From the NCBI GenBank assembly GCA_004214185.1, contig SGZG01000011.1:1-39718 (forward strand): a stretch of 39,718 bases of DNA, read 5' to 3'. Each line of letters starts with the position of its first letter. The stretch's first letter is position 1. The notes beneath the pieces are model-generated. The model saw only the letters and a program-made list of their open reading frames with translations, was not told the DNA's origin and searched no databases. The stretch is from Flavobacteriales bacterium. Its GTDB lineage: Bacteria; Bacteroidota; Bacteroidia; Flavobacteriales; Flavobacteriaceae. Below, piece after piece: positions 1,630-8,215 of this stretch. The position numbers were made by a program, and so were the translations under genes.

Positions 1630-1693
1630 ATTTGTAAAACTAACAATTATTAGTAACAAATTTCGAAAATCTTAATGTGTAAAAAATAGAAAG

Positions 1694-1765
1694 AGCCAAT
1701 GACGAGATTTGAACTCGTGACCTCTTCCTTACCAAGGAAACGCTCTACCCCTGAGCTACACCGGC
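1694..1765 (-). tRNA. tRNA-Thr (anticodon GGT)
   Basis: GCCGGTGTAGCTCAGGGGTAGAGC...TTGGTAA...GAGTTCAAATCTCG...CATTGGCT cloverleaf; CCA not encoded. Confidence 0.95.
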
Positions 1766-1775
1766 AAAAAATTTG

Positions 1776-1848
1776 AGCGGGAGACCGGGTTCGAACCGGC
1801 GACATTCAGCTTGGAAGGCTGACGCTCTACCAACTGAGCTACTCCCGC
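1776..1848 (-). tRNA. tRNA-Gly (anticodon TCC)
   Basis: GCGGGAGTAGCTCAGTTGGTAGAGCGTCAGCCTTCCAAGCTGAATGTCGCCGGTTCGAACCCGGTCTCCCGCT cloverleaf. Confidence 0.96.
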
Positions 1849-1856
1849 TTAAATAG

Positions 1857-1938
1857 TGGGGAGAGCAGGATTCGAACCTGCGAAGTTAAAAACAGCAGAT
1901 TTACAGTCTGCCCTCGTTGGCCGCTTGAGTATCTCCCC
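1857..1938 (-). tRNA. tRNA-Tyr (anticodon GTA)
   Basis: GGGGAGATACTCAAGCGGCC...CAGACTGTAAATCTG...GCAGGTTCGAATCCTGCTCTCCCCA; long variable arm. Confidence 0.96.
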
Positions 1939-1957
1939 GATATTTTAAAGAACAATG

Positions 1958-2031
1958 AGCCGATGGAGGGACTCGAACCCACGACCTGCTGATTACAAAT
2001 CAGCTGCTCTAGCCAGCTGAGCTACATCGGC
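1958..2031 (-). tRNA. tRNA-Thr (anticodon TGT)
   Basis: GCCGATGTAGCTCAGCTGGCTAGAGCAGCTGATTTGTAATCAGCAGGTCGTGGGTTCGAGTCCCTCCATCGGCT. Confidence 0.96.
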
Positions 2032-2050
2032 TTTTCCAATTTATGGATGG

Positions 2051-2058
2051 CAAATGTA
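2051..2058 (-). promoter_or_regulatory. Putative tRNA operon promoter -7 element (TACATTTG)
   Basis: CAAATGTA on + strand, about 20 nt upstream of the first tRNA (Thr-TGT); matches TAnnTTTG. Confidence 0.5.
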
Positions 2059-2117
2059 TTGATTTATTTTTTTTGAATCAAAAGAAAATAGTGAATTTTT
2101 AAAAAAATTTAAATCAA

Positions 2118-2999
2118 CTAATTTTTTCTTTCTCTTGGGTGATTTTTCTTATAATCATTTATAATTTTAGGAAGCTTTATTTTTGTATAGATTTGAGTAG
2201 AAGCTAAACTTGAATGACCCATTATTTCTTTAATACTGTTTATATCGGCACCATTATTTAGCATGTGCGTTGCAAATGAGTGCCTTAAAACATGTGGACT
2301 GGTCTTTACCTTAGAAGAAACTTTTGAAAAATAATTTTTAACAACTCTGTACACTAAAGATGGACCAATTTTTTTACCAGTTTTAGTAATAAATAAAAAA
2401 GGAAAATTAGTTTTGATTTCTTTTCTGTATTTTAAATACTCTTCAATTCTTTTTTTCAGATCAATAATTAACGGAACTAAACGTTCTTTATTTCTTTTTC
2501 CTAAAACTTTAATTAAATTTTGATTTAACTGTAAATCATTTATTTTAATGTTTATTAGTTCTTCTCTTCTTATACCTGTTGAATATAACATGTCCACAAT
2601 CAATAAATTTCTTTTTCCTTCAAAATTATTACTAAAAACATCAATAACTCTTAAAACTTCATCTTCAGAAAAAGGTATTATTATTTTCTTTTGAACTTTT
2701 AATCTTTTATGATTTTGTAAAGGAGAGGATTTAATTTCTTGAATCTTAATTAAAAAATCATAAAATTTACTTAGAGAGGATATTTTCCTATTAATTGTTA
2801 AAGCTGATAATTTTTTTTCTGATAAATTAATTATCCAATCTCTGATTATTGAATAAGGAACTTTTGAAATATTTTTTAAATTATGATTTTCGAAACAAAA
2901 ATTTTTGAAGGTATCAACATCTCTAACATATGCAACAACAGTGTTGTTAGAAAATTTCTTCTCCTTGGATAAATAATCAGAAAAATTAGAAATTAGCAT
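2118..2999 (-). CDS. xerC: Tyrosine recombinase XerC/XerD-like
   Basis: SAM-like N-terminus plus catalytic motifs STGIRREEL, HVLRHSFATHMLNNGADINSIKEIMGHSSLASTQIYTK. Confidence 0.88.
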   Translation of the reverse strand: MLISNFSDYLSKEKKFSNNTVVAYVRDVDTFKNFCFENHNLKNISKVPYSIIRDWIINLSEKKLSALTINRKISSLSKFYDFLIKIQEIKSSPLQNHKRLKVQKKIIIPFSEDEVLRVIDVFSNNFEGKRNLLIVDMLYSTGIRREELINIKINDLQLNQNLIKVLGKRNKERLVPLIIDLKKRIEEYLKYRKEIKTNFPFLFITKTGKKIGPSLVYRVVKNYFSKVSSKVKTSPHVLRHSFATHMLNNGADINSIKEIMGHSSLASTQIYTKIKLPKIINDYKKNHPRERKN

Positions 3000-3037
3000 C
3001 ACTTAACTTATGATTATAAAGTTAAGTAAAATGAAGA

Positions 3038-6313: not shown

Positions 6314-6621
6314 TAATTTACTATATCACCATTCCATTCTGAAATTCCACCCAAAAGATTATATACCTTATTAAAACCCATCTGATTCATTATTTTACAT
6401 GCAGCAGAACTTCTAGCCCCAGATTTACAATAAATATAAAATTCTTTATCACTTGAAAAAGATTTTATTTTTTTAATAAAATCTGAGGAATCGTAAATAT
6501 TTAAATTGATGGCATTTTTAATAAATCCCTCAACAAATTCTTCGGGTGTTCTAACATCAATTATAGTATTTGATTCTTTTAGAGACGATTTATTTGACCA
6601 ATCTAATTGATTTAAATCCAT
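6313..6621 (-). CDS. Rhodanese-like domain protein
   Basis: DVRTPEEFVEGFIKNAINLNI ... FYIYCKSGARSSAACKIMNQMGF (active-site Cys loop CKSGARS). Confidence 0.92.
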   Translation of the reverse strand: MDLNQLDWSNKSSLKESNTIIDVRTPEEFVEGFIKNAINLNIYDSSDFIKKIKSFSSDKEFYIYCKSGARSSAACKIMNQMGFNKVYNLLGGISEWNGDIVN

Positions 6622-6656
6622 AGAACATTTTATAGACTTAAAATTATTAATAAATT

Positions 6657-6688
6657 TTTGTAATGTATAATTTTCGTTACTATATTTG
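6657..6688 (+). promoter_or_regulatory. Predicted trp operon promoter: TTTG (6657-6660) - N20 - TATATTTG (6681-6688)
   Basis: Match to Bacteroidota -33/-7 consensus TTTG/TAnnTTTG with a 20-nt spacer. Confidence 0.75.
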
Positions 6689-6693
6689 ACTTA

Positions 6694-6744
6694 ATGAAAA
6701 TAAATTTAAAGACTAACTGGTGGCGTCAACTTAATTACAATTAA
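6694..6744 (+). CDS. Trp leader peptide MKINLKTNWWRQLNYN (attenuation)
   Basis: ATG AAA ATA AAT TTA AAG ACT AAC TGG TGG CGT CAA CTT AAT TAC AAT TAA; tandem Trp codons between promoter and terminator upstream of trpE; too short for the supplied ORF track. Confidence 0.85.
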   Translation: MKINLKTNWWRQLNYN

Positions 6745-6792
6745 GTCGATAACTCTTTTTGTCCAACAATAATAAAAGGCTTGTTTATCGAC
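6745..6792 (+). promoter_or_regulatory. Putative antiterminator pairing GTCGATAA (6745-6752) with TTATCGAC (6785-6792)
   Basis: Perfect 8-bp complementarity; the 3' arm spans the terminator loop and the start of its 3' arm, so the two structures exclude each other. Confidence 0.7.
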
Positions 6793-6803
6793 AAGCCTTT
6801 TTT
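6774..6803 (+). terminator. Intrinsic terminator (attenuator) in the trp leader
   Basis: AAAAGGCTTGT-TTATCG-ACAAGCCTTTTTT hairpin with T-tract, followed within 20 nt by trpE. Confidence 0.88.
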
Positions 6804-6820
6804 AATTAATTTAAATTGAA

Positions 6821-8215
6821 GTGTATAAATTTAAAACTCATAGAAAAAAAATTATTGCTGATTTAATTACCCCTGTAAGCGTATATCAAAAAATCAGAGA
6901 TAATTTTCCAAATTCAATATTACTTGAAAGTAGTGATTATGGAGCTAATGACAATAGTTATGCTTACATATGTTTTAATCCAACCTCTACTTTCAAAGTA
7001 AACAAAAACACAGTAGAAATAACTTACCCTGACAATCATACTGAAACATCACAGATAAATAAATCAAATTCAGTAATAAATCAACTTAACCAGTATAAAG
7101 GAAAATTTCAATTACTTAAGTCAGAATCTAAATTTTTTGAAAATGGTGTTATTGGATACATGAATTATGACTCGGTTCAATATTTTGAGAACATCGAATT
7201 TGATTCAAATAAAAATGAAATTAGTATTCCAGATGTTTTCTATTCATTCTATTCTAATATTATAATCATAAATGTATTTAATAATGAAGCTATTCTTCTT
7301 CACCATAGTTTAGATGAAAAAAACAACCTGGATACTATTGAAAATTGTATTAGATCAAACAAATCTTCAAAATACAATTTTGAAAAATCAGGAAAGATTT
7401 CTTCAAACCTAAATGACCAAGAATACATTGACCTGGTAAAAAAAGGGATAAAACATTGTAAAAGAGGAGATGTTTTTCAAATTGTTCTTTCCAGAAGATT
7501 TAAACAAAGTTTTGAGGGTGATGAATTTAACTTGTATAGGGCTTTAAGATCAATAAACCCCTCTCCTTACCTTTTTTACTTTGATTATGGTGGGTATAAA
7601 ATATTCGGAAGTTCACCTGAAGCCCAATTAGTTGTAAAAAATAATAAAGCGGAAATTCATCCAATTGCTGGTACTTTTTTAAGAACAGGCAATGACTTAA
7701 AAGATTCTATTGAGGCAGAAAAACTTGCTGTTGATCAAAAGGAAAATAGTGAACACATGATGCTTGTCGACCTAGCAAGAAATGATTTAAGCAGAAATGG
7801 AAATAATGTTACTGTTGAAAAAGATCGTGAAATTCAATTTTATTCTCATGTTATTCACTTAGTATCGAAAGTAACTGCAACCAAAAAAAATAACTCATCA
7901 TCTTTTCAAATAGCTGCAGATACTTTTCCCGCCGGAACACTTTCAGGAGCACCAAAACATAAAGCTATGCAGTTAATCTCCAAATATGAAAATTGTAATA
8001 GGTCTTTTTATGGTGGAGCTATTGGTTTTATGGATTTTGAGGATAATTTTAATCATGCTATAATAATTAGGTCTTTTTTAAGTATGAATCACGAACTAGT
8101 TTTTCAAGCTGGTGCGGGTATAGTTTCTAAATCTGATCCAAAAAGTGAACTTCAAGAAATAAATAATAAACTTGGAGCTTTAAACAAAGCTTTAGATCTA
8201 GCAGAAAAAATTTAA
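6821..8215 (+). CDS. trpE: Anthranilate synthase component I
   Basis: GTG start; QIVLSRRFKQSFEGDEFNLYRALRSINPSPYLFY, HPIAGTFLRTG, DLARNDLSRNG, FPAGTLSGAPKHKAMQLI. Confidence 0.95.
   Translation: MYKFKTHRKKIIADLITPVSVYQKIRDNFPNSILLESSDYGANDNSYAYICFNPTSTFKVNKNTVEITYPDNHTETSQINKSNSVINQLNQYKGKFQLLKSESKFFENGVIGYMNYDSVQYFENIEFDSNKNEISIPDVFYSFYSNIIIINVFNNEAILLHHSLDEKNNLDTIENCIRSNKSSKYNFEKSGKISSNLNDQEYIDLVKKGIKHCKRGDVFQIVLSRRFKQSFEGDEFNLYRALRSINPSPYLFYFDYGGYKIFGSSPEAQLVVKNNKAEIHPIAGTFLRTGNDLKDSIEAEKLAVDQKENSEHMMLVDLARNDLSRNGNNVTVEKDREIQFYSHVIHLVSKVTATKKNNSSSFQIAADTFPAGTLSGAPKHKAMQLISKYENCNRSFYGGAIGFMDFEDNFNHAIIIRSFLSMNHELVFQAGAGIVSKSDPKSELQEINNKLGALNKALDLAEKI

Follow-up and report, generated by a model that had tools for sequence, protein, structure and literature searches.

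A short open reading frame with two adjacent Trp codons lies between a Bacteroidetes-type promoter and trpE in 39,718 nt of contig sequence from a Flavobacteriales bacterium; this whole stretch of DNA was analyzed and is hereafter called the window. The locus raises the question of whether the leader is a ribosome-mediated attenuator of the tryptophan operon and, if so, which RNA strand would oppose its terminator. Gene calls downstream of the leader are, in order, trpE, G, D, C, F, B, and A, and this trpEGDCFBA operon begins about 17 nt past the T-run of the terminator. The elements discussed below are as follows.

6657..6660 (+): TTTG, -33-type element of the Bacteroidetes primary sigma factor, read in the sequence; TTG at the same spacing in 133/145 relatives
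6681..6688 (+): TATATTTG, -7 element (TAnnTTTG), read in the sequence; perfect TAnnTTTG in nearly all relatives
6694..6744 (+): leader peptide ORF, MKINLKTNWWRQLNYN*, probably leaderless; read in the sequence, with an equivalent ORF in 17/17 same-genus leaders
6718..6723 (+): tandem Trp codons TGG TGG (control codons), read in the sequence; WW or WWW in every evaluable relative
6725..6750 (+): 1:2 hairpin, 6725-6727 with 6748-6750 and 6729-6735 with 6740-6746, from the minimum-energy (MFE) fold
6745..6752 (+): antiterminator 5′ strand, GTCGATAA; co-varies with the terminator loop
6755..6762 (+): antiterminator inner strand, pairing with 6772-6779 and holding the terminator 5′ arm, as predicted by the stalled-state fold
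6774..6803 (+): intrinsic terminator, stem 6774-6785 / 6790-6801, loop 6786-6789 (TATC), T-run 6798-6803; sequence and folds
6785..6792 (+): antiterminator 3′ strand, TTATCGAC, made of the terminator loop and the first three bases of the 3′ arm; sequence and co-variation
6821..8215 (+): trpE, GTG start, first gene of trpEGDCFBA; from the ORF list, best family match anthranilate synthase component I

The trpE start codon in the genus is apparently GTG or TTG (GTG TAT AAA or TTG TAT AAA) and not ATG (6821-6823 in the window; loci L036-L049). Elsewhere in the window (1693-3002), four clustered tRNA genes (Thr, Gly, Tyr, Thr) adjoin a tyrosine recombinase gene with phage-integrase domains.

The leader belongs to the Bacteroid-trp RNA family

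A scan against all Rfam families matched RF01692, Bacteroid-trp, at 6674..6785 (+), with 57.0 bits against a gathering score of 49 and over the full model (1-131). The element before trpE is a member of this catalogued family and a known phenomenon. It is not new, because the family was listed in 2010, among 104 candidate RNAs (PMC2864571), and was noted upstream of the trp operon of Flavobacterium psychrophilum (F. psychrophilum) in 2019, when E. coli-like control was proposed (PMC6414381). A 2021 transcriptome of F. psychrophilum gave strong indications that amino-acid operons are preceded by leader-peptide attenuators (PMC9723704). As far as we found, the Bacteroid-trp mechanism had hitherto been proposed by analogy only, and the supplement of the 2010 report possibly draws an antiterminator.

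RF01692 was found in 143 of 201 sampled genomes of the same family (Flavobacteriaceae) and in 27/395 genomes sampled from the class. Within the window's genus, the model at its curated threshold detects 3/22 genomes. A TrpE-based search of the genus recovered 17 trpE genes of trp operons together with the sequence upstream, and all 17 leaders contain a leader ORF with tandem Trp codons, a terminator, and an antiterminator pairing. The Rfam model misses most members of the genus, as the comparison of 3/22 genomes detected with 17/17 recovered trpE leaders makes clear. Altogether, 147 upstream regions were collected, in 144 of which both leader ORF and terminator could be delimited. The family-level sequences were mostly gathered with RF01692 and are biased toward typical leaders, whereas the genus sample, obtained via TrpE, does not carry that bias.

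Promoter and leader peptide

The earlier note had placed a consensus promoter upstream of the leader ORF, and this was borne out by TTTG at 6657-6660 and TATATTTG at 6681-6688, which are separated by a 20-nt spacer and correspond to the Bacteroidetes consensus TTTG / TAnnTTTG (PMC7366714). We also considered a sigma-70 promoter and rejected it: matches near the site occur at chance level, and the relevant type is the Bacteroidetes one.

In F. psychrophilum, the -7 box lies at -12 to -5 (PMC9723704), and in F. johnsoniae 4-5 nt separate the box from the transcription start (PMC6847099). From these spacings, we predict transcription to start at 6693 or 6694, which coincides with the leader AUG at 6694. 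The distance from the -7 box to the leader ATG is 4-8 nt throughout the genus (exactly 4 nt in 12/17 members); across the family, it falls into two groups of about 4-5 nt or about 14-21 nt. Since transcription is predicted to start at the leader AUG, the leader peptide in the window's genus is probably read from a leaderless mRNA. Leaderless mRNAs make up only 5.5% in F. psychrophilum (PMC9723704), and the trpL of Sinorhizobium meliloti is a known precedent for a leaderless leader (PMC7298713).

The leader ORF comprises 16 codons, from the ATG at 6694 to the TAA stop at 6742-6744, and carries TGG TGG at 6718-6723, just as the earlier note had read it. That note proposed conservation of the two Trp codons as a check; they are conserved in 17/17 same-genus leaders, which were located via trpE and not via the RNA model.

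Hairpin and terminator

A pairing of ACTTAAT (6729-6735) with ATTAAGT (6740-6746) had been described as a 1:2-type hairpin overlapping the leader stop. The pairing is present, and its extent had been drawn too short, since in the fold it reaches 6725-6727 with 6748-6750. The RF01692 consensus hairpin can be aligned to the window end to end, with several pairs non-standard, and the local fold favors the shorter 1:2 hairpin. In the window, unless a ribosome is stalled, this hairpin sequesters five bases of the antiterminator strand, and in the ribosome-free fold at least 3 nt of that strand are paired upstream in 143/144 relatives.

The terminator proposed at 6774-6803 is likewise present, with a stem longer than had been given: it has 12 pairs, the first of which is U-G. 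All but 3 of the 147 upstream regions contain a homologous terminator, and one of those three is cut by a contig end. Between 6500 and 7000, one terminator-like site was found against 0.0 expected; the scan lists this site on the minus strand, since on the plus strand the AAAA:TTTT pairs at the foot of the stem run into its T-run. The leader fold has z = -3.6 relative to 200 dinucleotide shuffles.

The terminator loop co-varies with a strand near the leader stop

The perfect 8-bp candidate antiterminator suggested between 6745-6752 and 6785-6792 is present (shuffle p = 0.005), and both of its strands co-vary in relatives. As it shares bases with the terminator, the two pairings are mutually exclusive, as had been claimed.

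We searched the region between the Trp codons and the terminator in all 144 sequences. Of these, 138/144 have an unbroken Watson-Crick helix of 5 bp or more that joins the terminator loop, with the upper part of the 3′ arm, to a strand near the leader stop; with G-U pairs allowed, a helix of at least 5 bp occurs in 144/144. Four genus members (G204, G219, G215, and G208) need G-U wobbles to pair. Toward the terminator 5′ arm, the complementarity of the searched region is far shorter, mostly 3-4 bp. One of these four genomes, G219, also has a second, more distant trpE (locus L055, contig C77; 60% identity to that of the window) with its own family-type attenuator, TCGTGAT / ATCACGA; this gene may represent contamination or a second operon.

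Most often, (G)TCGTGA(A) pairs with (T)TCACGA(C), and divergent versions keep pairing: TCGCGA/TCGCGA in the genus, GTCGAAA/TTTCGAC in G217, TGTCGCAAT/ATTGCGACA in G043, and GTCGCAA/TTGCGAC among further relatives. The window and its sister genome G214 carry GTCGATAA/TTATCGAC. On the TrpE tree, the double changes are nested, with G216 having TCGTGA/TCACGA within relatives that have TCGCGA/TCGCGA, and with the window clade having its own pair.

Because MAFFT shifted the antiterminator strand of the window clade by ~4 columns relative to the rest, we used a helix-anchored comparison and permutation controls in place of column counts. When loops were permuted among sequences, the observed complementarity was reached in 0/2000 trials, with z = 11.3 for all 144 sequences, 3.7 within the genus, and 6.4 with one sequence per distinct helix. 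The co-variation check that the earlier note had proposed for these strands was thus favorable: they change together. Comparison with about 140 relatives therefore supports a candidate antiterminator that would capture the loop and upper 3′ arm of the terminator. RF01692 lacks this helix because the model ends before the terminator loop.

In other families of the class, a loop pairing was seen by eye, often with one G-U. Separately, in four loci of one other family (L180, L181, L183, and L184), the strand that follows the Trp codons seems to pair with the 5′ arm of the terminator (GGCAGCC / GGTTGCC) and not with the loop; this classical-looking arrangement suggests that the antiterminator mode may have switched in evolution. 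We make no claim of selection on the inner helix 6755-6762/6772-6779, since a terminator arm left unpaired would be expected to find some partner in any case.

Geometry and folding

Counted from the first base of the last TGG, the antiterminator strand starts at a distance of 19-25 nt in 144/144 sequences, and its distance to the leader stop varies from -10 to +11 nt in the same set. With standard ribosome footprint sizes, taken from general knowledge, the strand lies just past a Trp-stalled ribosome and within or beside the footprint of a ribosome at the stop in 144/144. These positions agree with the geometry put forward in the earlier note, in which the strand would be covered by a ribosome at the stop and left free by stalling at the Trp codons.

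We folded the RNA with and without a masked ribosome. With the ribosome on WW, the antiterminator has the lowest energy until the RNA has emerged as far as 6797; with the ribosome at the stop, the terminator alone forms; without a ribosome, the 1:2 hairpin and the terminator form. In the full-length RNA, the terminator is the more stable structure (-16.2 vs -11.9 kcal/mol for the antiterminator), so the model needs kinetic control, with the choice made during RNA synthesis.

Proposed mechanism and alternatives

We conclude that the Bacteroid-trp leader is very probably a classical ribosome-mediated transcription attenuator with a loop-capturing antiterminator; its ribosome stalling, termination, and tryptophan response are what we infer from these elements. 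RNA polymerase would start at ~6693-6694, and a ribosome would load on the AUG at, or one base off, the 5′ end. When charged tRNA-Trp is ample, the ribosome would reach the stop at 6742-6744 and cover 6745-6752, allowing the terminator at 6774-6801 to form and transcription to end at ~6803. When tRNA-Trp is scarce, the ribosome would stall on TGG TGG, open the 1:2 hairpin, and free 6745-6752, which could then capture the terminator loop and upper 3′ arm (6785-6792) as they emerge, while the inner helix holds the 5′ arm. The terminator hairpin would then fail to nucleate, and polymerase would continue into trpE. Without a ribosome, the 1:2 hairpin would form, and the terminator would win.

The leader could instead hold a plain constitutive terminator that trims trpE transcription, or a small-RNA gene that yields a short RNA, with the mini-ORF incidental. 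A strong intrinsic terminator is indeed present, and in S. meliloti both the attenuated trpL RNA and the peptide it encodes have trans-acting roles (PMC7298713). However, neither tandem Trp codons at a fixed 19-25 nt from the antiterminator strand (144/144) nor a co-varying alternative pairing would be expected from such an element, and we consider this reading very unlikely. Slightly less probable still is that the loop complementarity reflects a pseudoknot or a stabilizer of the terminator and not its opponent. A hairpin loop complementary to an upstream strand is a pseudoknot signature too, and our tests show complementarity, not effect. Yet the 3′ strand uses the first three bases of the terminator 3′ arm, the next base already being stem, and on geometric reasoning there would be no linker to cross a helix of 6-8 bp and the 4-nt loop would be too small. 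Moreover, it is precisely when termination is called for that a ribosome at the stop would hide the strand.

T-box, TRAP-type, or riboswitch leaders control trp genes in Firmicutes, and a leader of this kind would sense a ligand or tRNA and not the ribosome. We rejected the T-box, TRAP, and riboswitch readings for want of a family match: among cis-regulatory Rfam families, RF01692 alone reaches its gathering score here, and for the T-box we found no match at gathering score in the window, nor at E up to 10 in 6600-6850. The conserved part is instead a translated mini-ORF whose Trp codons stand in varied peptide contexts among relatives. Sensing of a ligand or tRNA is accordingly a practically negligible alternative to ribosome-mediated attenuation.

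Comparison with known leaders

By covariance-model (CM) score, the window belongs to the same family as RF01692 (Weinberg et al. 2010, PMC2864571); it shares the site upstream of trpE and the tandem-Trp leader ORF, and it has the same GGCUUGU terminator 5′ arm. In carrying WW, it departs from most family members, which have WWW, and several hairpin pairs of the model are not standard in the window. The model itself stops in the terminator 5′ arm, and neither the loop antiterminator nor the leaderless control peptide is in it.

Like the enteric attenuator trpL of E. coli, the window has tandem Trp codons, a 1:2 hairpin, an antiterminator, and a terminator, in the same order and with the same logic. 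In contrast to E. coli, its main antiterminator helix would be built on the terminator loop and upper 3′ arm and not chiefly on the 5′ arm, and it has no Shine-Dalgarno sequence, with its AUG at the predicted 5′ end. The trpL of S. meliloti (PMC7298713) resembles the window in having a leader ORF at the transcript 5′ end and ribosome-dependent trp attenuation, but belongs to another phylum, is unrelated in RNA sequence, and is followed only by trpE(G).

Beyond this locus, we lean toward the view that trp attenuation across Flavobacteriaceae and other Bacteroidia works by capture of the loop with the upper 3′ arm, the 5′ arm not being the main target, together with a leaderless control peptide in the window's genus. 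The element itself is ordinary in kind; what the analysis usefully adds is that the loop antiterminator co-varies and that the control peptide is probably translated from a leaderless mRNA. The comparison adds evidence for the missing piece of Bacteroid-trp, its antiterminator, and opens Trp attenuation in Bacteroidetes, which lack Shine-Dalgarno signals, to a direct test by two-strand compensatory mutation.
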